A stretch of DNA of 34,514 bases. It comes from an uncultured bacterium. Lineage in GTDB: Bacteria > Patescibacteriota > Minisyncoccia > Phycocordibacterales > CAIZLB01. The position numbers and the translations under genes are program-made. A model generated the notes under the pieces. It searched no databases and was not told where the DNA came from. It saw only the letters and a list, made by a program, of their open reading frames with translations. The DNA lies in the NCBI GenBank assembly GCA_903936565.1, contig CAIZVZ010000014.1, positions 1-34,514 of the forward strand. The letters are read 5' to 3'. Within the stretch, counting starts at the first letter, position 1. Every line of letters begins with the position of its first letter. Of this stretch, positions 2,513-33,800 are shown piece by piece.

Positions 2513-2956
2513 ATGAAAACTACAAACAAAACATCTGGTGATGAAGGAGAACAAGAAATTGTTGTTTTGGTTCCATGCCCAAATTGCTCTAAAAAGTTAA
2601 TGTTATTACCAACAAACTACCCACTTTTTGATGTTCAATGCACGGGTTGTTCGTTTAGAGCTCAGGTTAAGACAAAAAAAACTAAACCAAAATCTGTTGT
2701 TTTTGGTGCGGAGTGGCAGATTATGAGTAAGGTGTTGAAATCTGGGTATATGGTTCCGCCATTATTTTTGAACTTTAAATGGTCAGAAGGTGGGGCTGGT
2801 AGGCAAGAAATCAGGTTCTACCCATTTGTTCCTAAGAAAAACTTATCTAATCACAAACTTTCAGATGAGGCTCAAAGAGCTAATTATGAGATGTTTAATT
2901 ACGTAGGGATGGATAAATTGCCTTATTTTGTGGTTTACACTAGTAATTTTAAATAA
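2513..2956 (+). CDS. Short DpnI-like (Dam-replacing family) restriction endonuclease domain, candidate
   Basis: CPxC...CxxC zinc motif with D-x10-Q-V-K (FDVQCTGCSFRAQVK), matching from memory the layout of DpnI D-x10-E-L-K; C-terminal LSDEAQRANYEMFNYVGMDKLP resembles DpnI LAPTARRAGWIGCNIDLSQVP. Confidence 0.65.
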   Translation: MKTTNKTSGDEGEQEIVVLVPCPNCSKKLMLLPTNYPLFDVQCTGCSFRAQVKTKKTKPKSVVFGAEWQIMSKVLKSGYMVPPLFLNFKWSEGGAGRQEIRFYPFVPKKNLSNHKLSDEAQRANYEMFNYVGMDKLPYFVVYTSNFK

Positions 2957-2971
2957 TACAGGGTAGGCGGC

Positions 2972-3050
2972 TTGACAACATCTTATCTTTAACTATACTT
3001 AGAGTTAAGTTAAAGTTTGTTGACCAACTTTAACTATAAATTTATATAAT
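2972..3050 (+). promoter_or_regulatory. Promoter/operator region of the Fic-hsd operon
   Basis: TTGACA (2972-2977), 16-nt spacer, TATACT (2994-2999); inverted repeat AGTTAAAGTT (3008-3017)/AACTTTAACT (3026-3035); direct repeat CTTTAACTATA at 2987 and 3028; second -10-like TATAAT at 3045-3050. Confidence 0.65.
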
Positions 3051-3055
3051 AAAAG

Positions 3056-4219
3056 ATGAAATATAATCCAGGCAAATCCATTAAAGCTACAAGTCCACAA
3101 GGTGAGGCTTATTTAGCGTTTTTGCCCGAAATAATAAATAAGGACTTTTCATGGGAAGACAAGAGGATTGATACACTTTTGGAGTCAGCTAGAGGCTGGC
3201 TTGGCGAGCTTAATGCTTATTCTAAACTAATACCCAATGTTGATTTCTTTATACAATCTCATGTTGCAAAGGAAGCCGAGCAATCCAGTAGAATTGAAGG
3301 AACAAAAACTACACTAGAAGAGCTGTATGTTGAGAAGGAGAACTTTGATGACCCTGAAAAGGTGAATGATCAGGAAGAGGTTAAAAATTATATCAATGCA
3401 TTAAATTATGCTATTGAAAGTATAAGCACACCAAATAAACCACCGCTCTCAATTCGTCTAGTTTGTGAATCTCATAAGGAATTACTTGCTGGTGTTAGAG
3501 GTTATAAAAGGCATCCTGGCGAAATAAGAAAAATTCAAAATAAGATTGGTGGAAGCGCTGGAAACATTAAGGATGCAGTTTTTATTCCACCTTCACCTGA
3601 TATAGTACCAAGTCTACTAAACGATTTGGAGGAATTTTGGCATAACAAGAATTTGGAAATTCCAGATTTAATAAAAGTGGCACTATCTCACTATCAATTT
3701 GAGACTATTCACCCATTTGAAGACGGTAATGGTCGTATAGGAAGATTAATAATAATTCTTCAATTTATTTCCTACGGAATGCTTCAGAAGCCCACATTGT
3801 ATTTATCAGAATATTTTGAAAAAAATAGATCAGCATATTACGATGCCCTTTCTAGGGTTCGAGAATCAGGTGATATGGAACATTGGATTAAATTCTTTCT
3901 AGTAGGTGTTGCCGAAACAGCAAAAAAAGGAAAGGAAACTTTGGAAAAGATAATTGATTTACAGAAGAAGTATGAAGGTCTAATTGAAAGTTACCTCGGG
4001 GTAAAACAGCAAAAGTTAGGTAAGGAGTTATTAAAACATTTGTTTGCAAAGCCAGTTATAACAGCAAAGGATGTTGAACTAATGCTTAACGTAACCAAAC
4101 CTACAGCCACAAGTATTGTAAATAAACTATCAGAATCAAATATGCTCTCAGAGAGAACTGGTTATAAGAGAAACAGAGTTTATGCGTTGAATGAATATTT
4201 GGAACTATTTAATAAATAA
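3056..4219 (+). CDS. Fic family protein (Fic/DOC N-terminal domain, C-terminal winged HTH)
   Basis: Fic motif HPFEDGNGRIGR (3710-3745); inhibitory-helix-type motif SSRIEGT; C-terminal HTH-like ITAKDVELMLNVTKPTATSIVNKLSESNML. Confidence 0.93.
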   Translation: MKYNPGKSIKATSPQGEAYLAFLPEIINKDFSWEDKRIDTLLESARGWLGELNAYSKLIPNVDFFIQSHVAKEAEQSSRIEGTKTTLEELYVEKENFDDPEKVNDQEEVKNYINALNYAIESISTPNKPPLSIRLVCESHKELLAGVRGYKRHPGEIRKIQNKIGGSAGNIKDAVFIPPSPDIVPSLLNDLEEFWHNKNLEIPDLIKVALSHYQFETIHPFEDGNGRIGRLIIILQFISYGMLQKPTLYLSEYFEKNRSAYYDALSRVRESGDMEHWIKFFLVGVAETAKKGKETLEKIIDLQKKYEGLIESYLGVKQQKLGKELLKHLFAKPVITAKDVELMLNVTKPTATSIVNKLSESNMLSERTGYKRNRVYALNEYLELFNK

Positions 4220-4231
4220 TAAATTATAATT

Positions 4232-6214
4232 ATGGAAAACTTCACTCAAAAAACAACAATGATATGGAATATAGCAGATATCCTGAGGGGTGGATGGAAA
4301 CAACATGAATATCAAGATGTTATATTACCTATGGTTGTTTTGAAGCGTCTGGATTCAATACTTGCTGATACGAAGTCAAAAGTTTTAGAAAAACATAATG
4401 AATATAAAGGCAAGCTCCAAGACTTAGATCCAATACTCAAAAGAACTGCCGGAGTTCCGTTTTATAATATTTCTGATTATAATTTCAAAACCCTTCTAGG
4501 CGAGCCAAAGCAATTAGCTAAAAATTTCAAGCAATATATTAATGGTTATAGTAAGAATATTCAAGATATATTTGAAAAGTTTGATTTTAATAAGCAATTA
4601 GAAAGATTAGAGGACGGAAAAATATTATTCGAGATGATTCAAATACTGAACGGAGTAGATTTACATCCGAGAAGTGTAGACAACTATCAAATGGGTCATG
4701 TATTTGAAGAGCTTCTAAGAAAATTTTCTGAAATGTCCAATGAGACAGCTGGAGAGCACTACACCCCGCGTGACGTTATTAGTCTCATGACTGAGATGCT
4801 GTTTTCTCCAGATAAGACGGATTTGAAAAAGCCTCATGTGATTAAGAAAATATACGATCCAGCCTGTGGTACTGGTGGAATGCTTTCTGTTGCAAAGGAT
4901 TACATCCTAGAAAGTATAAACAAAGAAGCTAATATATTCCTATATGGACAAGAGTTAAATTCAGTCACATATGCTATGGCAAAGTCTGATATGTTGATCA
5001 AAGGAGATGATCCGGATCTTATTCGAGGCGGGGAAAAGGACCACTCAAAAGCAAGTACTCTAGCCAACGATCAATTCTTTGGTGAAGTTTTCGACTATGG
5101 GTTGAGTAACCCACCCTACGGAGTTGATTGGAAGAAAGATAAAGAAGTAGTAGAGCGAGAAGCGTCTCGTGGATACGCTGGAAGATTTGGTGCGGGCACT
5201 CCTCGTATCTCAGACGGTCAGCTTTTATTCTTGCAACACCTGATTTCAAAGATGAAACCAGAGAAGGATGGTGGGTCTCGAATCTCAATCGTTCACAACG
5301 GATCACCGCTGTTTACTGGAGATGCTGGAAGTGGAGAAAGTGAGATACGTAGGTGGATTCTAGAAAAGGACTTGCTCGAAGCTATTGTGGCGTTGCCAGA
5401 CCAGTTGTTCTACAACACTGGTATCAATACCTACCTTTGGTTTGTTACGAATAGAAAGTCAAAAGAAAGAAAAGGAAAAGTTCAACTCATTGACGCCCGT
5501 ACCTTTTTTCAAAAGACTCGTAAGAGTCTTGGTAGTAAAAGACATGTAATTGACCCTGATTCAAAAAAGAAGATTGCTGAACTTTATGAGAAGTTTGAAG
5601 AAAATGAATTCTCAAAGATTTTCAAAACTACAGATTTTGCATATAGACAAATTACAATCGAAAGACCACTTCGTCTCAAGTTTGATTTTACTCCAGAAAA
5701 GATAGAAGAACTTCTTACAGCTTTTGACATTAAAGACAATAAAAACGGTATGAAAGATTTTATTGAATCTTTTGAAAATCAAATCATCACAAGTAAGAAA
5801 GTGCTAGATGAAAAAATTGAATCGGTAAAAGATCAGCGCGTAGCTATTAAATTTACCGCAGGACAATACAAAAAACTTATATCAATAGTTGGTATTAGAG
5901 ATGAAGAAGCAGAAATTTGTACCGATAAAGATGGTAACCCAGAGTCAGATGGCGAACTACGTGATTTTGAAAATGTTCCTTACGAAATGGACATTAAAAA
6001 ATATTTTGATAAAGAGGTAAAGCCATATGTTTCAGATGCTTGGATAAATGAATCGGTCCGAGATCATAAAGATAATAAAGTTGGTGTTGTTGGATATGAA
6101 ATTCCATTCACACGACATTTCTACAAGTACGAAGCACCAAGAAGTCTTGAGGCGATAGAAATTGATATAGAAAAGGTTGAGAATGAATTACTCACTCTAC
6201 TAAAACAACTATAG
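4232..6214 (+). CDS. hsdM: Type I restriction-modification system DNA methylase subunit M
   Basis: EHYTPRDVISLMTEML, SAM motif DPACGTGGML, catalytic SNPPYG. Confidence 0.96.
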   Translation: MENFTQKTTMIWNIADILRGGWKQHEYQDVILPMVVLKRLDSILADTKSKVLEKHNEYKGKLQDLDPILKRTAGVPFYNISDYNFKTLLGEPKQLAKNFKQYINGYSKNIQDIFEKFDFNKQLERLEDGKILFEMIQILNGVDLHPRSVDNYQMGHVFEELLRKFSEMSNETAGEHYTPRDVISLMTEMLFSPDKTDLKKPHVIKKIYDPACGTGGMLSVAKDYILESINKEANIFLYGQELNSVTYAMAKSDMLIKGDDPDLIRGGEKDHSKASTLANDQFFGEVFDYGLSNPPYGVDWKKDKEVVEREASRGYAGRFGAGTPRISDGQLLFLQHLISKMKPEKDGGSRISIVHNGSPLFTGDAGSGESEIRRWILEKDLLEAIVALPDQLFYNTGINTYLWFVTNRKSKERKGKVQLIDARTFFQKTRKSLGSKRHVIDPDSKKKIAELYEKFEENEFSKIFKTTDFAYRQITIERPLRLKFDFTPEKIEELLTAFDIKDNKNGMKDFIESFENQIITSKKVLDEKIESVKDQRVAIKFTAGQYKKLISIVGIRDEEAEICTDKDGNPESDGELRDFENVPYEMDIKKYFDKEVKPYVSDAWINESVRDHKDNKVGVVGYEIPFTRHFYKYEAPRSLEAIEIDIEKVENELLTLLKQL

Positions 6215-6217
6215 AAT

Positions 6218-7498
6218 ATGCAAACACTCAAGCTTGCAAAGAAATATGATAAATACCCTGAATACAAAGATTCAGGTGTTGAGTGGTTGGGTAAAATTCC
6301 TAATGAATGGAAATTGAATAATTTACAACACCTCTTTACCAAGGTTAAAAGGATGGGATTTGAAAACGAACAATTATTGTCAATATATCGTGATCTCGGA
6401 GTAATAATAAAATCCTCAAGAGATGATAATCATAATAAAGCATCAGACGATTTATCCACATATCAACTTGTTGAATGTGGTGATCTAGCAATAAATAAAA
6501 TGAAAGCATGGCAAGGTTCAATTGCAGTATCTGAACACAGAGGTATTGTTAGTCCTGCATATTTTATCTGTAAACCACTCTCGAAAAATAATTCAAGATT
6601 TATTCACTATTTACTTAGATCAGATATTTATATTAAACAATATGAGAGGAATTCTGGTGGAGTAAGAAACGATCAATGGGATTTAAATTATGAAAGATTT
6701 AGAAAACTTGAAGCTGGTATTCCTGAAATTTATGAACAGACGAAAATTGCTAAATTTCTTGATGGAAAGACATCCTCGATTGATCAGATTATTGAAAGAA
6801 AAGAAAGATTGATTGAATTTTTACGTGAAAAACGTACAGCTCAAATTAAAAATATTATTAAAAGTTGTGATGTTAAAGGAAAGGAGTACACAAAAGAGAA
6901 AATTAAACACGTTATAAAATCAATAGAATCTGGAGTGTGGGGTGAAAATCCTCTTGGAAACAATGATGATATTAAATGTTTACGTGTAGCAGATTTTGAT
7001 TATGCAAATTTGAGTTTCTCTAATGTTGAGACAATAAGGAATAATGAAAGGCTTTCAAAGAGAAAAATATTACAGTACGGAGATATTCTCGTGGAGAAAT
7101 CTGGTGGTGGAGAAAAAACTCCTGTTGGACGAGCTATACTTTTTAATTCAAATGAGAGAATGGTTTGTGCGAACTTTGTAGATGTAGTCCGTGTAGATAG
7201 AAATAAAATACTACCAGATTTTCTTGTTTTCTACTTGTCGAGTTTATATTCAGAAAGAATTAATACAAAATATATTAAACAAAATACCGGCATCCAAAAT
7301 ATGGATATAAAGGCATATTTTGGAGAAATTGTTTCCTATCCAGATTTAAAGGTCCAGAAAGAAATTATAGATGACATCCAAAAAAAGATGGCTTTGTTTG
7401 ATCAATCGATTAAGAAAGTTGAGGAAACAATTGAATTTTTGAAGGAGTTTAAAGCTTCTTTGATATCAAATACTGTAACTGGAAAAATTAAAATATAA
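6218..7498 (+). CDS. hsdS: Type I restriction-modification system specificity subunit S
   Basis: YPEYKDSGVEWLGKIPNEWKL start, two TRD-like halves each followed by conserved helices (EIYEQTKIAKFLDGKTSSIDQIIERKERLIEFLREKR; KVQKEIIDDIQKKMALFDQSIKKVEETIEFLKEFKASLISNTVTGKI). Confidence 0.95.
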   Translation: MQTLKLAKKYDKYPEYKDSGVEWLGKIPNEWKLNNLQHLFTKVKRMGFENEQLLSIYRDLGVIIKSSRDDNHNKASDDLSTYQLVECGDLAINKMKAWQGSIAVSEHRGIVSPAYFICKPLSKNNSRFIHYLLRSDIYIKQYERNSGGVRNDQWDLNYERFRKLEAGIPEIYEQTKIAKFLDGKTSSIDQIIERKERLIEFLREKRTAQIKNIIKSCDVKGKEYTKEKIKHVIKSIESGVWGENPLGNNDDIKCLRVADFDYANLSFSNVETIRNNERLSKRKILQYGDILVEKSGGGEKTPVGRAILFNSNERMVCANFVDVVRVDRNKILPDFLVFYLSSLYSERINTKYIKQNTGIQNMDIKAYFGEIVSYPDLKVQKEIIDDIQKKMALFDQSIKKVEETIEFLKEFKASLISNTVTGKIKI

Positions 7499-7500
7499 AT

Positions 7501-7941
7501 ATGTCTGAATATCAATTAACAACTGAATTGATCAAGCTTAGCTCTTCTCAAAAATGGGACGAGGCAAAATTAGAATGGGAACTTATAGATGTTGAAAAAG
7601 TTGAAGACGCCGAGAGTTGTCTCTGCGGGCACTATCCTATACTTGAAATTTGTACCATAAAAAATATTAAAACTACAAAGACTGCTCGCGTCGGAAACTG
7701 TTGTGTTAAAAAGTTTAATAATCAATCAGATAAAATATTTAAGGCAATCTCTAGAATAAAGAAAGACAAAACTAAGTCATTAAATGCAGAAACGATTGAT
7801 TTTGCATTTAATAAGAAATGGATAACTGATAAAGACCGTAATTTTTATATTGATATATTCAGAAAAAGAAATCTTTCTCTTAAACAGAGTGATTGGAAAA
7901 ACTCAATAAATAACAAAATTCTTTCTAAAATAAATATATGA
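7501..7941 (+). CDS. Small putative Zn-binding protein (CxCxH...C...CC), coupled to reverse transcriptase
   Basis: 146-aa ORF with SCLCGHYPILEICTIKN...ARVGNCCVKKF; ATGA overlap with the next ORF (7938-7941). Confidence 0.8.
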   Translation: MSEYQLTTELIKLSSSQKWDEAKLEWELIDVEKVEDAESCLCGHYPILEICTIKNIKTTKTARVGNCCVKKFNNQSDKIFKAISRIKKDKTKSLNAETIDFAFNKKWITDKDRNFYIDIFRKRNLSLKQSDWKNSINNKILSKINI

Positions 7942-9305
7942 TAGCTTATTCTGACTTTAAAAAATATTTCAATAATGACTTTTGGAAATCATTCAAAAGA
8001 CTACCTTTTGATATTAAAATCCCAGAGAAAGAGAGGTTTATAAAATTAGTTTATGATTCAATTGTAACAAAAAGGTACTATCCTTCTACTCCAATTCGAT
8101 ATATAGATATTGATAAAGGCAACGGTGTCGCGCGTACCGTTCCAGTTTTTGATCTCAAAGATTATTGTGTTTATTACTTTTGTATAAAAATACTAGAATC
8201 AAAAATTGCCATAAACAGAGTGCAAAATACTTTTGGTGGATGGACACTCGGAGGTGTTATGAGGCAAACTGAGGATGAAGAAGTTTCAATTTCCTCTCCT
8301 GTTATTGAAGATGTGGATGATATGATTGAAGCATCAACAAATCCATACTCATTTAATCCATACGCATGGTCGAAGGTTTATGGAGATTTTAATTCAAAAT
8401 TATATGCAACAGCCAAAACCTTTAATGGTAGTTACGTGGCTGAGTTAGATATTGCGAATTTTTATGATTCAGTACGCTTAGATATTCTTGAAAATAAAAT
8501 AAGAGAAATAACTACAAATAATGAATCTGAGGTAGTAAGTCTTTTATTTCATTTCTTAAACTATTGGAACAGAGAAATTAATTTTTATAATGGACAAACA
8601 GTAGGATTACCACAAGATGCACTAGGTGATTTCTCAAGAATTCTGGCAAACTTTTATCTACAGGACTATGATCTATATATGAAGGCGAAGGCAGAAGAAG
8701 TTGGTGGAAGCTATTTTAGATATGCAGACGATCAATTTTTATTTGCTCCAGATGAAGATGGGGTTAAGAAACTTGTTTTTTTCGCCTCAAAGAAACTTAA
8801 TTGTTTTGGTTTGAGCATAAATCAAAAAAAAGTTGTTTACAGAAAGACTGAGGAATTAATTACCTATAGATCTTTTGATGTGTTTGAGATACTTGCTAAC
8901 GAAGAAACTAGGGATAATCCAGATATTATCGAAAGTTTTGCTGATGAGTATTTGAAAATTAGATCAAGCGGTCTGGATAGTCTAAAGGGTAAAGGTTTGC
9001 CCCTAGTTAATAAATTACTTTTCAGAAAGATTGAATTATTACCAGTTAGTAAAAAGATGGTTATTTTATCAGATTTATTAGATGATAACTATATTTCAAT
9101 AATTAAAGCTGATAAATTTGAACGCATATATTCTCTGCTTTATTCGAAAGACAGAAAGAAATTTATTAATCAACTATTAAAGTTATCACAAAAGAATTAC
9201 CATAACTCTTTTCATTATGAATTGATTAAATTTTTAAAATCAAAAAAGATTGATTCGTCGACGGTAAAGGAAAGAGTTGCAGTTTTACAAAAACTTTATA
9301 AATAA
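7938..9305 (+). CDS. Reverse transcriptase / RNA-directed DNA polymerase of the non-intron, non-retron unknown-group/Abi-like type
   Basis: RT palm motifs: AELDIANFYDSV (D171), GLPQDALGDFSRILANFYLQDYD, FRYADDQFLF (YADD at 8721-8732), LNCFGLSINQKKV; no maturase X or HNH domain evident; helical-looking C-terminal region of about 150 aa. Confidence 0.88.
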   Translation: MIAYSDFKKYFNNDFWKSFKRLPFDIKIPEKERFIKLVYDSIVTKRYYPSTPIRYIDIDKGNGVARTVPVFDLKDYCVYYFCIKILESKIAINRVQNTFGGWTLGGVMRQTEDEEVSISSPVIEDVDDMIEASTNPYSFNPYAWSKVYGDFNSKLYATAKTFNGSYVAELDIANFYDSVRLDILENKIREITTNNESEVVSLLFHFLNYWNREINFYNGQTVGLPQDALGDFSRILANFYLQDYDLYMKAKAEEVGGSYFRYADDQFLFAPDEDGVKKLVFFASKKLNCFGLSINQKKVVYRKTEELITYRSFDVFEILANEETRDNPDIIESFADEYLKIRSSGLDSLKGKGLPLVNKLLFRKIELLPVSKKMVILSDLLDDNYISIIKADKFERIYSLLYSKDRKKFINQLLKLSQKNYHNSFHYELIKFLKSKKIDSSTVKERVAVLQKLYK

Positions 9306-9311
9306 AATAAT

Positions 9312-12290
9312 ATGACAACAAAAACAAACACAAAAGAATCAGGATTTGAAGAATTCATCGAGCAACAATTGGTGAGCTTACATAAATATAGATCACGACC
9401 AAGTTCTTCATATAACAAAGACCTTTGTATGGACACAGAGTTGGTCTTAGAGTTTATTCAAGCTACTCAAAAGGATAGTTGGAATAAGTTGGTTGAGCAA
9501 TACGGTGGTGACGTTGCTAACAGATTTTTGGCTAGGCTAGATGAAGAGCTTCTTTCTCGTGGCTTATTAAGTGTACTTCGTGAGGGTGTAAAAGATCGAG
9601 GGGTAAGTGTTCGTCTCGCATATTGGAAACCTGAGAATGTTAAGAATCCAGAAACACTAGCCGACTATGCTGGAAATATTTTGAGTGTCATGCGTCAGGT
9701 GAAATACAGTGCCAAGAATGAAAACTCAATTGATATGGTTATCTTTGTAAATGGTCTCCCCCTATTTACAACCGAACTCAAAAATCAGTTTACTGGTCAG
9801 AATGTTATTAATGCCATATCTCAATACAAAACGGACCGAGATCAAAAAGAAAAATTGTTGTCATTCAAGCGTTGTCTTACTCATTTTGCTGTAGATACTG
9901 AGCAAGCGTATATGACTACACGAATCACTGGATTAACTACATACTTCCTGCCATTTAATCTCGGTAATAAGGGATCATCAGGCAACCCTGACGCACCAAC
10001 AGGAAAGTATAAGACATATTATCTATGGGAAGAGGTTTGGTCCAAAGATAGTATATTTGATTTGCTTGGAAACTTCATTCAAGAAGTAACTGGAGAGAAG
10101 GAAGATAAAAATGGAAAGAAAAGAAAGGAAGAGAAGCTAATCTTTCCAAGATATCATCAACTTGAAACAGTTAGAAATATTATACGTGACGTAAGTGAAA
10201 ATGACGTCGGTATTAATTACCTTATTCAACACAGTGCAGGTTCAGGTAAAAGTAATACAATTGCATGGGTAGCACACCGTCTGGCTGAATTGCACACAGT
10301 TGAAGGAGAGCAAGCCTTTGATGGCGTAATTGTTGTTACAGACAGAAGGGTTCTCGATAAACAACTTTCAAATACTGTCAAAAGTTTCAGTCACGTCACT
10401 GGCTTAGTTAAGCACATTGAAAATGGGGGAAAGGAGCTTAAGGAATCACTTGAGTCTGGTATAAAAATTATTACTACGACATTACAAAAGTTTCCAGTTA
10501 TTGTTGATACTATAGAAAAAGTAGAAGGTAAGAGATTCGCTATTATTATCGATGAGGCCCACTCATCTCAATCAGGAGATTCTGCGAGTGATTTACGTCA
10601 GGTGTTATCACTGGATGATGCTGAAAAGCAGGCAGAGGCAGAAGAGAAAGTATTTAAGACGGTAGAAGATCAAATTGATGAACGTATTAAAGCAAGAAAG
10701 ATTTCAAGTCCTAATTTAAGTTATTTTGCCTTCACCGCTACTCCAAAACAGAAGACCCTTGAACTCTTCGGCACAGAAGACGTTTTGACTAAAAAATTCG
10801 CTCCATTTTCATTGTATTCAATGAAGCAGGCAATAGAAGAGAAGTTTATCCTAGATGTCCTGAGAAACTATACAACCTACGAGACTTATTTTGGACTATT
10901 GAAAAAAGTTGAAAGTGACCCAGAATTTGATAAGAAAAAAGCTCAAAAATTAATTGTTGGTTATGTTGAGAGGCATGAACATGCCATTGATAAAAAAACC
11001 GCCGTAATGGTGGAGCATTTTGAAGAAAAAATATCTCAATTGATTAATGGTAATGCTAAAGCAATGGTGGTCACAAAATCAAGATTACATGCAGTTAGAT
11101 ATAAACTAGCCTTTGATAAATATCTGAAAGAAAAAGGTTATAATCACAGGGCGCTTGTTGCATTTTCTGGTAGTGTAAGGGATGTTGACACAAAATTGGA
11201 ATATACAGAAGCTCAAATGAATGGTTTTTCAGAAAATCAAACTGCTGAAGAATTTAAGAGAGACGAGTGTAAGTTTTTGATTGTTGCTCAAAAGTTTCAG
11301 ACAGGTTTTGATCAGCCGTTATTGTCTGTGATGTATGTTGATAAGAAGCTCAGTGGAGTTAATGCTGTGCAGACACTGTCTCGACTTAATAGAACTACTT
11401 ATGGTAAAGAAGAAACTTTTGTTTTGGATTTTGTTAATAAAACAGACGATATTAAAGATGCTTTTCAGCCATATTATACAACTACAATTTTATCTGAATC
11501 TACTGATCCTAACATCTTGCATGATTTGGAAAGAGATATTAAGGGATTTAAATTCTTTACAGATTTTGAAGTGAATGGATTTATTGATGAGTATTTTTCT
11601 GGTGCAAAGCCTGATAAATTGAATTATATAATAGACGGTGTAGTTTCTAGAATAGATCAAGAAAACCTGACAGAGGGGGAAATTGAGAGCTTTAAGGCTA
11701 CGGTATTTGATTATATTAAGAAGTATGCATTCATATCGCAAATTGCTACATTTAAGGATCCGCAGCTGGAGAAATTATATATATTCTTAAAGTTCTTAAT
11801 AAAGAAATTACCTAAAAAGGAAAATCCATTACCGTATGAGGTTCTAGAAGCTATCGACATGGAGACTTATAAGATTGAAAAAAAGAATGAAGTGAATGTT
11901 GTTCTTGAGGATAGTGAAGGTGTAATTGACCCAATGGGTAGAGGAGATGGTAAATCTGATTTGGAAGACGAGAAAGACGCTTTGTCTAGAATAATAAAGG
12001 AGATAAACGAGAGGTATGGTACAGAATTTTCTGATTCTGACAAAATAATTTTAAATAGCCTTAGTACAAAATTGTTTAAAAATGAAGCACTTCAGGGGTC
12101 AGTTAAAAATAATAGCAAAGACTCTGCAAAACTTAAATTTGATGAAATGTTTGAAAATGAACTGGTTGATATGTTAGATAATCATTTCAATCTATATCAA
12201 AAGCTAGATAAGAGTCCAGAGCTTAAGAAGTTTGTCCAGGAAAGAGTATTTGAGTATTTGGTTAGAAAGATTGATAATGATAAGAAATAA
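9312..12290 (+). CDS. hsdR: Type I restriction-modification system endonuclease/translocase subunit R
   Basis: Walker A HSAGSGKSNTIAW, DEAHSSQSG, helicase motif FAFTATP, QTGFDQPLLSVMYVDKKL...QTLSRLNRT. Confidence 0.96.
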   Translation: MTTKTNTKESGFEEFIEQQLVSLHKYRSRPSSSYNKDLCMDTELVLEFIQATQKDSWNKLVEQYGGDVANRFLARLDEELLSRGLLSVLREGVKDRGVSVRLAYWKPENVKNPETLADYAGNILSVMRQVKYSAKNENSIDMVIFVNGLPLFTTELKNQFTGQNVINAISQYKTDRDQKEKLLSFKRCLTHFAVDTEQAYMTTRITGLTTYFLPFNLGNKGSSGNPDAPTGKYKTYYLWEEVWSKDSIFDLLGNFIQEVTGEKEDKNGKKRKEEKLIFPRYHQLETVRNIIRDVSENDVGINYLIQHSAGSGKSNTIAWVAHRLAELHTVEGEQAFDGVIVVTDRRVLDKQLSNTVKSFSHVTGLVKHIENGGKELKESLESGIKIITTTLQKFPVIVDTIEKVEGKRFAIIIDEAHSSQSGDSASDLRQVLSLDDAEKQAEAEEKVFKTVEDQIDERIKARKISSPNLSYFAFTATPKQKTLELFGTEDVLTKKFAPFSLYSMKQAIEEKFILDVLRNYTTYETYFGLLKKVESDPEFDKKKAQKLIVGYVERHEHAIDKKTAVMVEHFEEKISQLINGNAKAMVVTKSRLHAVRYKLAFDKYLKEKGYNHRALVAFSGSVRDVDTKLEYTEAQMNGFSENQTAEEFKRDECKFLIVAQKFQTGFDQPLLSVMYVDKKLSGVNAVQTLSRLNRTTYGKEETFVLDFVNKTDDIKDAFQPYYTTTILSESTDPNILHDLERDIKGFKFFTDFEVNGFIDEYFSGAKPDKLNYIIDGVVSRIDQENLTEGEIESFKATVFDYIKKYAFISQIATFKDPQLEKLYIFLKFLIKKLPKKENPLPYEVLEAIDMETYKIEKKNEVNVVLEDSEGVIDPMGRGDGKSDLEDEKDALSRIIKEINERYGTEFSDSDKIILNSLSTKLFKNEALQGSVKNNSKDSAKLKFDEMFENELVDMLDNHFNLYQKLDKSPELKKFVQERVFEYLVRKIDNDKK

Positions 12291-12333: not shown

Positions 12334-12996
12334 ATGCCCCACCCCTTCCAAAAACTTAAAAGAAAACTTTCACGCCTGAGGCGGTCAATCAATGCCGCTA
12401 ATACTCCTCGTCCTGCTCGACCTATAAAAATCTCCCAAAAGCAAATCACACTTTCTGGTCAGGAAATTGAATATACTCTCCGTCTAAACCCACGCTCCAA
12501 ATCCATCAGGTTCGCCATTCACGCTGGTGGGGAATTTATTGTGACAGCTCCACCTAGGGCGACGCAAATAATGATAGAGAGCTTGATTAAACTTAAGGCT
12601 GATTGGATACTTGATAAAATAAATCATTTTAAGAATGTTATAAAAATTCCAAGAAAATCTAAAGCAGAACAAAAGGCAGAATATGCGCGTCTCAAAAATG
12701 ATGCACTTAAAATCGCAACCGAGAAGGTTGCTTATTGGAACACATTTTACAATTTCAAATACAAAAATATCAGTATCAAAAATCAAAAGACAAGGTGGGG
12801 GAGTTGCTCGAGGAACGGGAATCTGAATTTTAATTATAAGATCGCGCTAATTAGCGATAAGCTCGCGGATTATCTTGTTGTACATGAAATTTCTCATTTA
12901 GGCGAATTCAATCACTCTGCAAAATTCTGGGCGCTCGTTGCAAAAACTATTCCAGATTATGCGATTGTTAGAAGGGAATTGAAGGGGGTTAAATAG
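12334..12996 (+). CDS. YgjP-like / M48-type metallohydrolase (DUF45)
   Basis: KTRWGSCSRNGNLNFNYKIALI...VVHEISHLGEFNHSAKFW (HExxH with downstream NHSxxFW). Confidence 0.9.
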   Translation: MPHPFQKLKRKLSRLRRSINAANTPRPARPIKISQKQITLSGQEIEYTLRLNPRSKSIRFAIHAGGEFIVTAPPRATQIMIESLIKLKADWILDKINHFKNVIKIPRKSKAEQKAEYARLKNDALKIATEKVAYWNTFYNFKYKNISIKNQKTRWGSCSRNGNLNFNYKIALISDKLADYLVVHEISHLGEFNHSAKFWALVAKTIPDYAIVRRELKGVK

Positions 12997-13092: not shown

Positions 13093-13794
13093 ATGAAAAT
13101 ACGACAATATCTAAATACCAACGCGGAAGATATTCTCTCGAAGAAAAACAACATATTTATTCCAATATGTTTGGGTAATAGATTCTTCTCATATAAGGGT
13201 GTATTGAACGAAAATATAGAAAAATACCTAATGTGGGCACTATCCAACACAAAAGAAAAAGTTCTATTTATCGTTGTAGACAAAATTCAGAATACCAACT
13301 TCTTTATTAGAAATAATCGTAAGTCTGAACAAGCAAGCTTAGAACATGTTTTAAAAGAGGGTGATATTCTAAAGAGTGCAATTGATAAATTAATCAAAAA
13401 ACTTCCAAAAAACTTCCAGAAAAAAGTTGAGGTAATAAGATGGAGTGACTATGAAAATTCAGACCCACTTTGTCGAGAAATAACGGAAATTGTTTACAAA
13501 GATTTTAAAGATAATGATGATTTTAGAAACAATGTTTTGGAATCAGTTAAGTCCTCGGTAACTGATCGGGAATTTTCTGAAGAAAATTATTTGAGACTTT
13601 GCAATTATGTTCTCGATGAATTTTGTGTTGTCTACTCTGGAATAGAATATAATGGAGAATATTTCGGACTATATTTGTATCCAGACACTGACGCAGTGTT
13701 GGATTTAATCGAAAGTATTAAAATGGGAGATATTTTTAAGGAATTGCACGACAAACTTCCTAAGCAAAAAACGGGAGTACTGATATTAAACTAA
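13093..13794 (+). CDS. Probable tRNA-dependent cyclodipeptide synthase (XYP-type)
   Basis: IPICLGNRFF aligns with the CDPS GISxGNxYF motif; Y172-VLD-E176 matches Y178/E182 of AlbC; Y196-P197 lies exactly 20/21 residues after the Glu, as Y202/P203 does in XYP CDPSs. Alignment made by eye. Confidence 0.75.
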   Translation: MKIRQYLNTNAEDILSKKNNIFIPICLGNRFFSYKGVLNENIEKYLMWALSNTKEKVLFIVVDKIQNTNFFIRNNRKSEQASLEHVLKEGDILKSAIDKLIKKLPKNFQKKVEVIRWSDYENSDPLCREITEIVYKDFKDNDDFRNNVLESVKSSVTDREFSEENYLRLCNYVLDEFCVVYSGIEYNGEYFGLYLYPDTDAVLDLIESIKMGDIFKELHDKLPKQKTGVLILN

Positions 13795-13808: not shown

Positions 13809-14384
13809 ATGAAAATTGATGAATTTTATGACAGTGTTGCATCGGAGTATGAAAACATAATTAATTCCCCAGAAGTTAATGCGAAGCTAATGCCTAAGAT
13901 TAAAGAGTTGTTTATTAAATACAATATCACCGAAGGTTCGATTCTGGATGTTGGATGCGGACCTGGAAATTTGAAGAGTGTATTAGGAGATAAATTTAAT
14001 TATACGGGGATTGATGTTTCTGAGAAGATGCTTTTTGAAGCAAAAGAAAAGGGATATCAGGTAATTAAGGGTAGAACAGAAGATGAAATTACTAAAATTC
14101 ACGATAAATCTGTTGACTATATTATTTCTTCAAGTACTCTGCACGTTGTTAAAGATTTAAATACGGTTATCGAAAACTTTGATAGAATTGCCAACAAAGG
14201 TTGGTTAATAACTCTTCCTGATATAACAGAAAATTTCATGAAAAATTTTCCTGTCGATGAGCCGCTGTATAATCATGTAAACTTCCCGATTATGGGAGTC
14301 AAAGAAGATATAATAATTCATGGCTGGACATCTCCTTCGGCTAATGAAGATATAAATGAGAGGGTGGTTATGAGGCTGTTTTAA
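13809..14384 (+). CDS. Class I SAM-dependent methyltransferase
   Basis: Motif I ILDVGCGPGNLKSVLG, GIDVSEKML; 14 nt after the CDPS stop. Confidence 0.9.
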   Translation: MKIDEFYDSVASEYENIINSPEVNAKLMPKIKELFIKYNITEGSILDVGCGPGNLKSVLGDKFNYTGIDVSEKMLFEAKEKGYQVIKGRTEDEITKIHDKSVDYIISSSTLHVVKDLNTVIENFDRIANKGWLITLPDITENFMKNFPVDEPLYNHVNFPIMGVKEDIIIHGWTSPSANEDINERVVMRLF

Positions 14385-25261: not shown

Positions 25262-26485
25262 ATGTCATTTAAATTTATGTTTTCAAAAAAATATAATCAC
25301 CAAGATGCTTTCACGTTAATCGAACTTCTATTTACGATTGCGATAATATCGCTCCTTTCAGCATTGATTTTAAATAGTCTGGCTAGTGCTAAGATGCGAA
25401 CGAACGATACAAAGATATCAGAAGACTTAAGACAATTTAGAACAGCTGTTGATCTTTACTACAATGACAATAGGACATATCCATCAACAGCGATGAATTA
25501 TGAAGATAAAAACATTGCTGTTCAGGATAAGCAATATGGTTGGTCAAATAAATTATCATTCTTTGTAAAAACAGCTGAAGCAGCAGCTGTTCATACTACT
25601 CCACTTTGCAGAAACTTTGATAAGGTCGCTGCATCTTTGGTTACAAGTAAATATTTAACTAATGTACCGGTTCATCCATACGATAATGATGCAAAAGGAA
25701 TTTGTTACAAGGCTGTAAATTCTAATGGTACTTTCTCAGCTTATGCATCGCTGACAACTTTAATGAATGTTGGTAGTGGAGCTTCGGCAGGTACAATAAG
25801 TAAAAGGACTGGATTTATAACGGGGGATACGAGTTCGGCTGGTATTACTAATTTGATTGCAACTACAAATTCTGCTGCCCCCACTGAAATTCCTTATCCA
25901 ATTGGGGTAGATGCCGTTACAGCTTTAGATATAACTAAATCAGCTGACGCCATCAATGGAGTTACTGCTGGTATTCAGGGTTCGGGTGGAACAGGTAGTA
26001 TCATAACCAATACATCTTCTACAGCTCCTGTAACGTATACGCTCTCAACTGTTGCACTCGGAGAGCCTCTTAGTGGGTCAATATCATATACTCCAGTTAA
26101 GGCATCTTATTCTCCTGGTGATATTGTAGTTTTCACAGCGATTCCCGGTTCTGGATATCTATTAACCTATTGGTTGGGCTGTACCGCAAGTACGGGTAAT
26201 ATCTGTACATTGGTTATGAATTCCAATACCGTAGTGCAAGCAAGCTTTAATAGAAGTTATAATTTTAATGTAGTCAATTATTTCCCTGCTGGTGGATTAG
26301 TTACTTATTCTCCAAATCAGCCAAAATATTTACCTGGAAGCACCATAACTGTTACCGCTAGTCCATATAATGGTTATACACTGACTTACTGGATTGGATG
26401 TACGTCCACTAATGGTAATACGTGTACTGTGACCACAGATTCGGCTGATAAGACTGTTTATGCAAGCTTTAATGCCGCATACTAA
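25262..26485 (+). CDS. Type II secretion/type IV pilin-like protein with two C-terminal InlB B-repeat-like domains
   Basis: Prepilin N-terminus AFTLIELLFTIAIISLLSALILNSLASAKMRTND; repeated ...Y(S/L)PG(D/S)...TA.P..GY.LTYW(L/I)GCT...ASFN twice. Confidence 0.9.
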   Translation: MSFKFMFSKKYNHQDAFTLIELLFTIAIISLLSALILNSLASAKMRTNDTKISEDLRQFRTAVDLYYNDNRTYPSTAMNYEDKNIAVQDKQYGWSNKLSFFVKTAEAAAVHTTPLCRNFDKVAASLVTSKYLTNVPVHPYDNDAKGICYKAVNSNGTFSAYASLTTLMNVGSGASAGTISKRTGFITGDTSSAGITNLIATTNSAAPTEIPYPIGVDAVTALDITKSADAINGVTAGIQGSGGTGSIITNTSSTAPVTYTLSTVALGEPLSGSISYTPVKASYSPGDIVVFTAIPGSGYLLTYWLGCTASTGNICTLVMNSNTVVQASFNRSYNFNVVNYFPAGGLVTYSPNQPKYLPGSTITVTASPYNGYTLTYWIGCTSTNGNTCTVTTDSADKTVYASFNAAY

Positions 26486-26850: not shown

Positions 26851-27729
26851 ATGTTTAAAATTATATTTAACATTAAAAACACCATCAGAAATATTGTATT
26901 TTTGTTGGCGTTTTTGTTTACCTTTATTGCAATTTGTTATGGATTGTTTGTGCTAGCAAATCAGCCTTCAAATAATAGGAATTGGGTTAAAGATATGAAG
27001 GAGCTTTCTTCTGTTGAATTCAACAGCGGTAGTAGCACTGTGGTTCTATATAACATTAGAAATAATTTATACAGAAGCACTGATGATTTTGATGTAAGGT
27101 ATTATAATACTAAATTTGATATAAAGAAGCTAAAGAAAGCATATTTGATAACTGATCCATTTGGTAATTTTGCATCACATACAATGCTTGATTTTGAATT
27201 TGATGACGGCCAAAAGGTTGTGTTATCTGTTGAGGTCAGAAGGGAAGAGGGCGAGGTCTTTCAGAATTTTAAGGGAATGTTTCGTGGTTATGAATTATAT
27301 TATGTCTGGTCAAGTGAGGAGGACGTTATTAAGCTTCGTACTAACTATAGAAAGGATAGTGTGTATATGTACCCACTAAAGATGTCAGAAGCAAATATTC
27401 AAAAATTATTTGTTGAAGCATTACTTAGAACAAATGAGTTAAAAGATAACCCAGAGTTTTATAACTTCTTATTTGACAATTGCACAACTAATTTAGCAGA
27501 GATGTTGCAGAAGGTGTATAACAAAAAAATAATTGTCGATTGGAGGTATCTTGCGCCAGCGTATGCCGAAGGCTTGTCTATGAAGTATGACCTTATTGAT
27601 GGTAATCCTGTTGGTGACAAAGAGACTATTTTACAAATCAGGAAGACACACGATATTTCTCCATATGCAAGAGCTTGTGATGATTGCTTCGATTATTCGG
27701 GGTCAATTAGGAATATTTTTGGGAAATAA
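26851..27729 (+). CDS. DUF4105 (Lnb N-terminal-type) membrane-anchored protein
   Basis: N-terminal TM; FLFDNCTTNLAEMLQKV and FGNFASHTMLDFEF style motifs. Confidence 0.85.
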   Translation: MFKIIFNIKNTIRNIVFLLAFLFTFIAICYGLFVLANQPSNNRNWVKDMKELSSVEFNSGSSTVVLYNIRNNLYRSTDDFDVRYYNTKFDIKKLKKAYLITDPFGNFASHTMLDFEFDDGQKVVLSVEVRREEGEVFQNFKGMFRGYELYYVWSSEEDVIKLRTNYRKDSVYMYPLKMSEANIQKLFVEALLRTNELKDNPEFYNFLFDNCTTNLAEMLQKVYNKKIIVDWRYLAPAYAEGLSMKYDLIDGNPVGDKETILQIRKTHDISPYARACDDCFDYSGSIRNIFGK

Positions 27730-27881
27730 TTAAACTATTTCGAACTAATAGGATTAGGGTAATAATTTTGCCAAATTTTGCCTACTTATACACAGTTTTA
27801 TATTGAAAACAGCGCACTTTTCTGACAGCAGTGTGTTATAATAAAAAGGATTCAAGGGTTGAAATAATAGTATTTTGCGAG

Positions 27882-30800
27882 ATGCCTTTTAAAATTTTAA
27901 AAATATTAGGTTGGAATATTACCCCAAGGCTTTTTAAGTATATGGGAGTACTTATTTTTGTCGCATCTACATTTACTTTTGTTCAATTTGCTGGCGCTAC
28001 AATTTACCAACCCGGTGAGACATTAGAGCCTGATTGTGCGCCTGGTTCTGCTAATTGCGGTGTTGTTACTCCTAATTCTTCTGCAGTAAATACAGGCCTA
28101 TTAACGTCGACAGATTGGAGTGCTTTTAATAATAAACTTTCTGCCACATTAAATCAGGGTAAAATTTTTATTGGAGATGGTTCAAATCAAGCGAGCCCAA
28201 TAAATATTTCCGGAGACGCAGGTCTTTCAAGTTCAGGTCTGCTTACAATATCTAGTAATGCAATTACAGCTTCTAAAATTCTCAATGCTGCAGTTACTTA
28301 TGCAAAAATACAAGATGTTAGTGCTGGCAAAATTTTAGGAAATCCAACAGGCTCATCTGCTGCTCCTTCGGAAATTAGTTTAGGTAACGGTCTTATGTTT
28401 TCTGGAACAGATTTAAAAGTTAATGTTCCAACATGTGCATACAATGAAAGATTAAGTTGGAATGGATCTGCCTTCTTCTGTTCTGTAGTTGCCGCTGGTA
28501 CGATAACTGCTGCAAATACTTTTTATGCTGGTCCAACAAGCGGTTCACCAGACTTACCAGGATACAGGTCGATTGTTGCATCAGATCTTGGTAGTGGTCT
28601 AGCAACAAATCAAGAAGTTTTGTTGGGTAATCAATCTTGGTTAACTCTATTTGATGGTTCTGGAAAAATTAATTCATCAGTTTTGCCAAGTTCAATTACT
28701 GGTTCATTGAAATTTAGGGGAACTTGGGATGCTAATTTAAATTCACCCAATTTAAATACTGGAGGAATTGGGGGAGTAAGTGGGGATTTTTATGTTGTTG
28801 ATGTTGCCGGTACATCTACTCTCGATGCTCACTCAATATGGAATGTTGGGGATTGGGTTGTTAATGCGTCATCCTCTTGGGATAGAGTTGAACAAGGTGC
28901 TACAGTTTCAAGTGTAAACGGTAAGAACGGAACTATAGTTTTAAATACTGGTGATATAAGTGAGGGTGTGAATCAATATTTTACAAATCAGAGAGCGAGA
29001 AATGCTTTTGCGGGAGTTGGACCAATTACCTTATCCTCAACTACTGGAAATATTGATTGTCCTACTTGTGTTACAAATACTGGAAATGGAAGTTTATTAT
29101 CTGGTACGGGTGTTGGTATGAGTGGAAGCCTTTCGGGACGCTTGATTGGTTCTGGCAATGTAACTTTTTCTATAAATGATACAACTGTTATATCTGGAAG
29201 TTATGGTAGTAATACCTCCGTTCCAACTTTTACTGTTGACGCTCAAGGAAGGCTGACTTCTGCTGGAACAACTACTTTGGATGTGTCAGCAATTACTTCT
29301 GGAAATCTATCTGTCGCACGTGGTGGAACTGGCGCTGGAACATTTACAACAAATGGAGTTCTTTATGGTAATGGTACTGGGGCTCTTTCTTCATCTATTG
29401 CTGGAACATCTGGTCAATTTTTAGTTGCAAATGGATCTGGGGTTCCAGCCTTTGTAACAGCCTCGGGAGATTTGGCAGTAAATTCATCGGGATTGTTTAC
29501 AATAGGAACAAGCACAATTACATCATCAAAGATTACAGATGGTACAATCGTGAATGCTGACATATCAGGAGGAGCATCCATTGCGTACGGAAAATTGAAC
29601 CTTGCAAATTCTATCGTGAATGGTGACATTGTAAATGGAACTATCACAAATAATAAACTTACAAATTCCTCAGTCGGACTTACTTTAGGATCATCGGGAA
29701 ACGACATATCGCTTTCGACTAATTCTGTTGCACTCGGTGATACGTTGGTTGTCAATGTTCCAAGCGCATCTAGTATTGCACGTGGTGTTGTTTCTACCAC
29801 CACTCAAACCTTTGCTGGTGCAAAGACCTTTAGTAATGACGTGACATTGAATGGTAATGCGATCTTCAGTAGGGATTTTATTACTCCAAAGGGTGCAGAC
29901 TATGCAATTACTGGAACCCAAAATGATGTAAACCTTGGAGTTGGATCATATTTTCACTATATTGGTAATTCGCCAGCTACATTCACAGGAATTGCTGGAG
30001 GAGTAGACGGAAGACTTATTCGTATACTTAATGATAGTAGCTTTACTTTAACAATTAAAAATCTTGGTGCTGGTTCATTACCTGCTAATTTAATTGAAAC
30101 ACCAAATTCTGAGGATATTATTATTCAGCCAGATATGATGTTGGCTTTGATTTATGATATTGATTCAGCTAATTGGCATCTAGCATCTCAACCTACAACA
30201 GCGGACACAATAAAATCCTTTTCCTACATAAATGGTGGAAATGGTTTTGGAGGTGCAGCAAACATTGGAACAACAGATGCTTATGGATTGAATTTTATTA
30301 CAGCAGGTTCTTCTCGATTTGGGATTGCTTCCAGTTCCGCGACACTAACTGGTGCTGGGGCGACATCCATTATTGGTGGTTCAACCCTTGCTTTGACTTC
30401 TGCGTCCGGTTCATCGCTTAATGTTAATTCTGGAACAACAGGCTCACTCAACTTGGATTCTGGGACAACGGGTGCCATCAATCTCGGAACTGGATCTAAT
30501 TCAAAAAATCTCACAATCGGCAATACGACGGGTACAACTGCAATTAATGTAAACAGTGGAACGGGTGGAATTAATTTGACGGGCCTTGTGACACTTGGAA
30601 ATGCATCAACATCAAATGTCTCTGTTGCTAATAATTTATACATTGGTACAACAAATATTTCGTCAATTGTTGGTAACAACGGAGTCTCGACCTTGCGTTC
30701 TGATCTTGCGGTTACCGGTTCAACATCTTTGCAGAATTTTACAGCAATAAACGGAACTACTACTGGTAATTTTCATGCAACAACATTTTCGGGTAGTGCA

Positions 30801-33800
30801 CAAAACTTGACCCTGGCCAGACTTGGTAGTACAACATTTTCAACTCTACAGGATATGCAGAATGTATTTCATTCATCTGGATGGACTACTGGTGGAAGTA
30901 TAACTGATGCTGGTGGTGGAAGTATAAATGTTGCAGCTGGAACTGGTCTTCTTCGTCCAACAAACTCAGCATTGGCAACTGTATATTATTCAGATTGGCC
31001 AGCTGTGAATGGAATTGCAATTCCTACTAACACAATTAAATATATTGGTGTTGAATACAACGGCGGAACACCTCGTGTTACAGTACGTAGTTCTGCAAAT
31101 TGGAATTACAAAACTGATTTTCCAATAGGGGTAGTTACAAATGAGGGTGGTGTAATTCATGCGGCAAGTGATGTTCAGGGTGTTGGGGACCACGCTGCAA
31201 CCATGATTCAACGTGAGTATGAGACAATGCCGCTTTCTAGGGATGAAAGATCTGGTGGTCTCATGATTATGGAGTCAGGTGATAGTAATAGACATATTAT
31301 GGTTACAGCAGGTGCGCTTTGGGATAGACTTACTCGTTATTCAATACCAGAAATTGATACTGCTACAGGTAGTACATTTGATACATATGTAGGAACAGTT
31401 AAGCAATCCTCTTCTCAAACTCAATGGGATAATACTCACTATGGTAATGCTGGTACATACACAACTTTGGCTGACGGTAAATATGCTGTCATGTGGTTCT
31501 ATGTGGAGACAGATAATGATCTTGTTGCTGTTTATGGAACTAATCAATATTCTACGGTTGCTGCTGCTACAGTTGAAAATTCACCAACAGTACTGCCAAA
31601 TAGATTAATAGGATCTGGAAAACTTGTTGGTAGAATTATTTTTCAAAAGTCATCAAATATTGCTGCCCAAGCTGACAGTGCGTTTAACATGTCTCCATTT
31701 AGTACAGAAGCACTAACTCACCTTTCTAATCTCTCTGATTTAGATTTTGAATCTTCTAAATTGACTGGCTTTGTTGGAACTGGAGGTGTAGCTGGAGGGC
31801 AAACAATTATCGGTGGAAAAAATATAATTGATGGATTGACACTGCAGAGTACTTCTGCAACAGGGACAACTGATTTTATAAAATTCTTGGTAGGGAATAA
31901 CGGCGCGACAGAAGCTGGAAGGTTTACAAATAATGGATATCTAGGGCTTGGAACAACTACTCCTTCATCGAGACTTGCTGTCTCTGGAACTGCGACCGCA
32001 GATAACTTTATTGCGAATTCATCAACTGCAACTTCTACGTTTGCTGGCGCTTTATCGCTCGGTGGAATACTTAGTGTTTCTGGTGCATCCTCACTTTCAT
32101 CACTCAATGTTTCTGGTTTGACGAGCTTGAATAATTTCACAGCTGTAAATTCCACCACAACAAATTCTGCTATAACAAACCTTTCAGTTTCTGGTCTAAC
32201 TCAAATTGGAACTGTTAACTCTGGAACATGGAATGGCGGAACAATTGGAACAATCTATGGAGGTACTGGACAGTCAGTTTACACAGTTGGAGATATCTTG
32301 TATGCAAGTGCAACAGGTACACTTTCAAAATTACCAATTGGGTCCAATGGAAATATATTAACGGTTGGTGGTTCAGGTGTACCTTCTTGGCAGCCAAATG
32401 CTGCTGGATCAATTATTACAGGTAAATGGGCTACAACCACAAATAGTCTAGCGCTTTATCCAATTGATCCAACTCAGGTTGTTTTGGTCGGAGCTTCTGC
32501 AACATCATCCACAGGAAAAATTTTAGAAGTTACTGGAAATTCATTATTCACTGGTAATGCAAATATAACTGGACTTACAACTCTAAGTGGTGGTGCTACA
32601 ACCACAAACCTAACTGTTTCGAATAATCTATCTGTTTTAGGAAGTGCAACCACAACTGGTGCATTCACATCAGGTGGTCTCATCACTGCGGCTGGATCTG
32701 GAGTTGGACTCAATATAGTTAATAATGCAACTATTGGCGGAACTCTTGATGTGACTGGTACAACCACACTGCAAAAATTAGTTGCAATAAACTCTACATT
32801 CACCAATGCTACAGCGACAAATATGTTTGTCACAAATCTTTCAACAAACACATTTAGTCCTGCCAACCTGTCAACCCCTGGAGCCTTTAGTGTTTCGGAC
32901 CTTTCAACACTTAGCGGTGGAGCATCGACTACAAACTTAACGGCATCAGGTTCTATTTCTGTTGGAGGAATGTCTACGACAACAAATGGAATAATAGACA
33001 CTCAAACAAAATATAAGATTGCTGGGCTTGATGTTATAACTTCAAATACATTAGGTTCTGGAATATTAAATTCATCCCTAACATCTATTGGTACTCTTGG
33101 TACGCTTACTGTCTCAGGTCAATCATCATTTGCTAATGCATCAACTACAAATCTTTCAGTATCAAATGCACTATATATAGGAGGGATGTCTACAACGACA
33201 AACGGAATTGTAAATACACAAACAAAATACCAGATTAATGGTTCAGATGTACTTACTGCAACTACTCTAGGTTCTGGAATTACATCATCATCACTCACGT
33301 CTTTAGGTACGCTTTCCGGACTTACTGTATCGGGACAATCATCATTTGCTAATGCATCAACTACAAATCTATCCGTTTCTGGCAATTTCTCAGCCGGAAA
33401 TGGTAATGCTTCCATTGCCTCGAACGGTAATATTTCAACAAATGGAACTATCACATCGGGATTAATAAATGGTCAAACAATTTCATCTTCTGCTAATTTC
33501 ACAGGTTCTGTTACATCTGCTGGACTAATCACTGCTTCGAATGGCCTTACTTTAAGCAGTGGTTCATTAACGCTTCCTGCTGCATCTATAAATGATTCAG
33601 CTCTTTCGTCTAATGTTGCCTTACTTAATCGTGCTAATCAAACATTTACAGGGGCAAATACATTCTCTGGACAAACAACTCTGGGAAATGCCTCATCGAC
33701 TAATGTTTCGGCATCGGGGAACTTGAGTGTTGCTGGAAACTTTATAATGCCAAGAGGAAATAACTATTCAACAACCGGAACACAGAACGATGTGGATCTC

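Follow-up and report, generated by a model that had tools for sequence, protein, structure and literature searches.

A UG13b reverse transcriptase embedded in a type I restriction operon of an uncultured Patescibacteriota bacterium

Introduction

In a contig of an uncultured Patescibacteriota bacterium, the gene of a reverse transcriptase (RT) and the gene of a small protein of 146 residues are placed between hsdS and hsdR of a type I restriction operon. This raises the question of what kind of RT is encoded here, whether it works alone, with a neighbouring RNA, with the small protein or under the control of the restriction enzyme, and why it is found at this place. An original prediction had been made from the letters of the DNA, and its claims are taken up below together with the results that bear on them.

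Results

The operon and its genomic setting

The stretch of DNA that was analysed, in the following called the window, is 34.5 kb long (34,514 nt) and is the entire contig (C14) of a 1.04-Mb genome that is 98% complete. The positions of the open reading frames (Table 1) confirmed the predicted head-to-tail gene order Fic-hsdM-hsdS-(146 aa)-RT-hsdR-YgjP and the gaps of 12, 3, 2, −4 (an ATGA overlap), 6 and 43 nt between these genes. Chance is excluded as the source of the operon's genes, of which the YgjP-like gene is probably the last. The best sigma-70-like match of the region, upstream of fic, is by its sequence a possible promoter of the operon; the total number of matches in this consensus scan was not above chance. 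The RT is very probably cotranscribed with the restriction subunits and would be made from the hsd operon mRNA.

Table 1 Features of the restriction operon and of the DNA directly upstream of it (positions in the window)
Feature	Position	Strand	Evidence and remarks
DpnI-like (Dam-replacing) methyl-directed restriction endonuclease	2513..2956	+	Pfam PF06044 34.3 bits (cut-off 26.7); PADLOC mREase_II 1.1e-5; upstream of operon
Sigma-70-like promoter match TTGACA-16-TATACT (11/12)	2972..2999	+	consensus scan, best match of the region; upstream of fic
Fic protein, SoFic-like (Fic_N + Fic)	3056..4219	+	Pfam PF13784/PF02661; PADLOC SoFic 385 bits
HsdM, type I methyltransferase	4232..6214	+	PF02384 203 bits; PADLOC MTase_I 867 bits
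HsdS, specificity subunit with two halves for target recognition	6218..7498	+	PF01420 in two stretches; PADLOC Specificity_I 252 bits
146-aa four-cysteine protein	7501..7941	+	no Pfam, NCBIfam or PADLOC match
UG13b reverse transcriptase (DRT-type)	7938..9305	+	PADLOC RT_UG13b 416.8 bits over 4-449
HsdR, type I restriction subunit	9312..12290	+	PF04313, SWI2_SNF2, T1R_D3-like
YgjP-like metallopeptidase	12334..12996	+	PF01863 132 bits; 43-nt gap after hsdR

Housekeeping genes flank the region from 2.5 to 13 kb, with an S41 peptidase, L9 and a NUDIX protein encoded before it and LeuRS after it. Since the gene of the DpnI-like nuclease is located directly upstream of the hsd operon, we regard the region as a small restriction island. 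The DpnI-like nuclease itself carries a possible CxxC zinc ribbon. One N6_Mtase match and one hsdS gene were found in the assembly, both within the RT-bearing operon, which is the sole type I restriction system detected in the genome. The G+C content is low in hsdS, in the gene of the 146-aa protein and in the RT gene (0.29–0.30) compared to hsdM and hsdR (0.35–0.36).

The RT is a full-length member of the UG13b group

The RT had been claimed to be a stand-alone enzyme of the unknown-group (DRT) type. This was borne out by the profile match to UG13b (417 bits), which covers nearly all of the 455 residues, whereas the next models, UG21 and UG19, reached about 97 bits. The window RT resembles the UG13b models (PADLOC DRT PDLC03750; unknown-group/Abi RTs) in its full-length match and in all key residues. 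For ten further proteins that were gathered, UG13b was also the best PADLOC model by a wide margin.

The catalytic motifs named in the original prediction, LDIANFYD (170–177) and YADD (262–265), are present, and the residues D171, D177, D264 and D265 are invariant in 11 aligned UG13b sequences. The GLPQD motif was also found, at 223–227, but its reading as a peculiarity of this RT did not hold, as PQD is a signature of UG13b and occurs in 9 of the 11 aligned members (SQD and PQE stand in its place in the remaining ones). A degenerate enzyme was therefore rejected as the meaning of this motif.

The check by profiles placed the RT in UG13b and not among the retron, group II intron or DGR RTs. 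As predicted, the protein has no maturase or HNH domain, and RVT_1 (43 bits) is its only Pfam domain. A group II intron RT was rejected on this ground, on the score of the group_II_RT_mat model (64 bits, cut-off 300) and because no Rfam match was obtained. A retron RT was rejected with 42 bits for the St85 model (cut-off 235), no Rfam match and no space for an ncRNA.

No description of the activity of any UG13 member was found in the literature searched. The UG13b family is already catalogued, and new here is its recurrent embedding in restriction operons (restriction neighbours may be listed in the 2022 UG/Abi survey, gkac467).

The best structural matches of the RT model are DRT and Abi polymerases

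The AlphaFold2 model of the RT, built with seven sequences, was of fair quality (pLDDT 76, pTM 0.65) and unreliable at the residues 104–139. It consists of an RT core of about residues 1–305 and an all-helical part of about 305–455, and the claimed alpha-helical C-terminal domain is thus present in the model. The best PDB matches in Foldseek, extending nearly over the full length, were UG15/DRT4, Abi-P2, AbiA and DRT6 with E-values from 2e-10 to 3e-9 and TM-scores of 0.36–0.52. DRT9 and group II RTs followed closely, with E-values at most about tenfold higher than those of the leaders, which is a small margin for a model of fair quality. When the sequence only was compared to the PDB, the best match was DRT2, an ncRNA-templated RT (E 3e-7).

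DRT4 and the Abi polymerases are single-gene systems that synthesise DNA without a template, and AbiK and Abi-P2 are primed from a tyrosine of their own (PMC9508834, PMC13213688). With DRT4/UG15, DRT6, AbiK, Abi-P2 and AbiA the window RT, as modelled, shares the RT core with the alpha-helical C-terminal domain, the encoding in one gene and that no ncRNA was seen. In contrast, it is 13–16% identical to DRT4/UG15, DRT6 and the Abi polymerases, and the residues 21–30, corresponding to the loop that joins helix 2 to helix 3 and in which AbiK and Abi-P2 have their priming tyrosine, contain no tyrosine. The priming residue would therefore lie elsewhere, for example at Y47, the invariant N-terminal tyrosine of the RT, which is located after helix 3. 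The priming position varies among the known systems. We regard template-free DNA synthesis by the window RT as likely.

The RT is conserved as a single bare ORF

The DNA similarity among five relatives (L001, L002, L003, L004 and L006; 75–88% in blastn) was lost within about 6 nt upstream of the start codon and within about 10 nt downstream of the stop codon. In the closest pair the RT gene of L003, which has no restriction gene, and that of L004 in an hsd operon were 87.5% identical within the ORF and about 25%, i.e. randomly, identical outside. The substitutions between the two were distributed 27/18/128 over the codon positions 1, 2 and 3. Because the identity is limited to the ORF and the substitutions show this distribution, what is conserved is the protein, on which purifying selection acts. 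The mobile unit is the bare ORF of the RT, and a neighbouring ncRNA is therefore probably needless for it. No conserved ncRNA adjoining the RT was found in the five relatives, and no Rfam match was obtained in 2–14 kb of the window. As had been noted, the RT is flanked by −4 and +6 nt, which leaves no room for an intron RNA.

These results bear on the possibility that the RT is an ncRNA-templated enzyme like DRT2, DRT9 or DRT10, with an RNA that is encoded elsewhere, within the ORFs themselves or in flanking DNA that changes rapidly. The sequence match to DRT2 and the appearance of DRT9 among the structural matches are consistent with it. The ending of the DNA conservation at the ORF is the main argument against such a mechanism, and the lack of space at the RT in the window and of an Rfam match point in the same direction. 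We therefore consider an ncRNA template unlikely and prefer a self-sufficient enzyme.

UG13b loci in restriction operons and elsewhere

UG13b loci were taken from a one-genome-per-species scan, from whole-genome searches and from IMG/VR, giving twelve distinct loci including the window. The set (n=12) consists of MAG contigs, with short flanks at some of the loci. Rhodobacterales plasmid RTs (28–30% identical) and the distant UG13b-profile matches L013/L032 and L027 were left out. UG13b is rare, with 4 carriers in 380 genomes drawn from the phylum and 4 in 384 drawn from the class (about 1%). In the order draw of 397 genomes the own genome was the sole carrier; this draw did not show the same-genus carrier G001, which has just a 39% identical relative, located elsewhere. 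In phage records and in a single-query viral scan, a close relative of the RT was not found.

At four of the twelve loci the RT gene is tightly inside a restriction operon or ends it, in three architectures. In the window the order is hsdM-S-x-RT-hsdR. In L002, the genes for HsdR, AlbA/Schlafen and an HsdMS fusion are followed by the RT after a gap of 3 nt. In L004, HsdR and an HsdMS fusion precede the RT with an overlap of 8 nt, and a PD-(D/E)XK nuclease is encoded 6 nt after it. L006 (23–2967 of a 4.6-kb contig) has an HpaII endonuclease, Vsr and the RT with an 8-nt overlap; a 64-nt insertion, either real or an assembly error (contig coverage 2.6x), interrupts its RT reading frame. At two further loci a restriction gene was found 1–5 kb from the RT, namely a type III Res subunit on the viral contig L021 and HsdR in L083. 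At the remaining six loci no restriction gene adjoins the RT (L001, L003, L005, L030, L031 and the just 4.3-kb contig L035), and in L001 the RT adjoins RhuM and Fic genes. The recurrence of the RT with hsdS and hsdR was thus confirmed in part: the RT is found in restriction operons of other assemblies (L002, L004 and L006), but the exact order hsdS-x-RT-hsdR in this assembly only. As a separate observation made by eye, the gene beside the RT in L031 (1569–5069) and in L035 reads as elongation factor G.

The RTs of the window and of L001 to L006 form one clade (100/99), in which the copies in restriction operons and the lone copies are intermixed and the hosts come from several phyla. The HsdM of the window is 22–23% identical to the HsdMS fusions, and therefore the restriction-operon loci are separate captures and not one inherited locus. 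The operons of L002 and L004, which are 41–42% alike, may have a common ancestor. That 3 of the 12 UG13b loci lie within a few kb of hsdS corresponds to a rough P of about 6e-5 when random placement is assumed, and the ordinary clustering of defence genes would soften this value. As the UG13b RT occurs in restriction operons as well as alone, it seems to be a portable defence gene acquired by restriction operons.

Variable slots and a proposed working of the RT

A complete sister operon (L042, 343–8795), whose HsdM is 53% and whose HsdR is 47–48% identical to those of the window, has a DUF3800 gene that separates hsdM from hsdS and a Fic gene that separates hsdS from hsdR, whereas the RT is not in the slot. 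Since these genes are carried in place of the RT, the hsd intergenic slots are variable, and in the lineage of the window and L042 the spaces between the hsd subunit genes look like slots for a changing cargo. The nesting of a further defence system in an hsd operon is likewise known from Vibrio, where the type IV restriction system TgvAB in the VPI-2 type I RM operon protects without the restriction activity of HsdR (PMC11411939). TgvAB is a nuclease system, whereas the window encodes a DNA-synthesising RT.

With a probability of about 0.55, we propose that the UG13b RT is a self-sufficient one-gene DRT that is carried as cargo in the hsdS-hsdR slot, works probably template-free and protein-primed and gives the cell a further line of defence besides the restriction enzyme. 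From this accessory slot, the RT would be translated from the operon mRNA in coupling via the ATGA overlap and would stay quiet until a phage infects the cell. The YADD centre would then most likely synthesise DNA with no RNA supplied as template and with the RT protein as the primer, which is the mode of DRT4/UG15 and the Abi polymerases. The infection would be aborted by the DNA product or by the reaction itself. This second line of defence would act independently of HsdMSR. The UG13b loci that have no adjoining restriction gene make it unlikely that the RT depends obligatorily on a restriction partner.

A dependence of this kind is known for PrrC, which is encoded within the type IC locus ecoprrI and becomes active once the T4 protein Stp inhibits EcoPrrI (PMC12707154). 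In a PrrC-like arrangement, HsdMSR would hold the RT silent, an anti-restriction protein would free it, and the DNA synthesis would kill or arrest the cell. Like PrrC, the window RT is a defence effector encoded inside a type I hsd locus, and RTs of the group occur in restriction operons of three types in tight coupling. However, PrrC is an anticodon nuclease, and UG13b is not constantly linked to restriction, with 6 of the 12 loci without an adjoining restriction gene. The restriction partners are mutually unrelated, with HsdM and HsdMS at the low identity given above and the type II enzyme HpaII, which makes a conserved specific protein contact unlikely, and TgvAB protects from within its type I locus without HsdR restriction. 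The control by the restriction complex is thus putative for the RT, and we find a guard held by HsdMSR doubtful. Doubtful, too, is the wider form, in which the UG13b RTs of restriction operons are guards that start a template-free abortive synthesis when restriction fails (because the phage DNA is modified or an anti-restriction protein acts) or when HsdR or HpaII leave DNA ends. By analogy to PrrC, it is possible that the RT serves as a backup when the R-M system is overcome.

The RT group UG13b is now tied to restriction systems of three kinds. Its restriction-linked and its lone loci are compact natural constructs for asking whether the synthesis and the cutting of DNA cooperate within a single defence operon. 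If the guard reading were true, a restriction-triggered DNA-synthesis defence would be common to type I and type II systems.

The 146-aa protein is not a conserved partner of the RT

The small protein had been described as a CxCxH metal-binding protein. The cysteines C40, C42, C51 and C68 are conserved, being invariant in 20 of 20 relatives, but the histidine at position 44 is Gln or Lys in several of them. The relatives are 33–50% identical and are encoded on conjugative plasmids and viral contigs; the closest of them (42–50%) come from viral contigs and from conjugative plasmids of Enterobacterales. On the plasmids the family adjoins CBASS-like, ThiF/JAB, Shedu and restriction genes, where "CBASS-like" and "JAB" are names that we gave to neighbours annotated as nucleotidyltransferase/HNH and as ThiF/metallohydrolase, and no RT is listed close by. 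The model of the protein was good (pLDDT 91.6), and no PDB fold matched it under an E-value of 0.18.

The direct adjoining of the two genes with their 4-nt overlap and the low G+C content of both would fit a two-gene module, in which the 146-aa protein is a primer protein, an activator or an inhibitor of the RT; the low G+C content is equally seen in hsdS. The protein is absent from the genomes of L001 to L006 and from five genomes with related hsdR genes, and its relatives on plasmids and phages have no RT listed nearby. The predicted pairing was therefore not borne out, with six other UG13b genomes lacking the protein and the protein occupying many unrelated contexts. A conserved pair was rejected, and a two-gene module is very improbable. 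The 146-aa protein is a further passenger of the hsd operon, independent of the RT and not its partner. The unnamed family of four-cysteine proteins of about 150 residues (L014–L020, L053–L077) turns up on conjugative plasmids, in phages and in defence islands. Its member in L077 is preceded by a stretch that by eye resembles a GIY-YIG endonuclease.

Alternatively, the RT could be a bystander without antiviral function, either a remnant or part of a mobile element, that came into a defence island by chance. This is suggested by the patchy spread (about 1% of the phylum and class draws) and the one broken copy (L006) but is hardly credible against the purifying selection on the catalytic residues and the protein sequence and the absence of an intron RNA, a maturase domain, a retron or a known RNA family adjoining the RT.

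Further genes of the window

Behind the operon, the positions 13093–13794 show a weak match to a cyclodipeptide synthase (CDPS), which is under the family cut-off, and a methyltransferase gene is next at 13809–14384. At the end of the window, an ORF of at least 2228 aa (27831–34514) runs off the contig. Upstream of it are a pilin-like N_methyl gene (25262–26485) and a gene with an Lnb_N domain (26851–27729).
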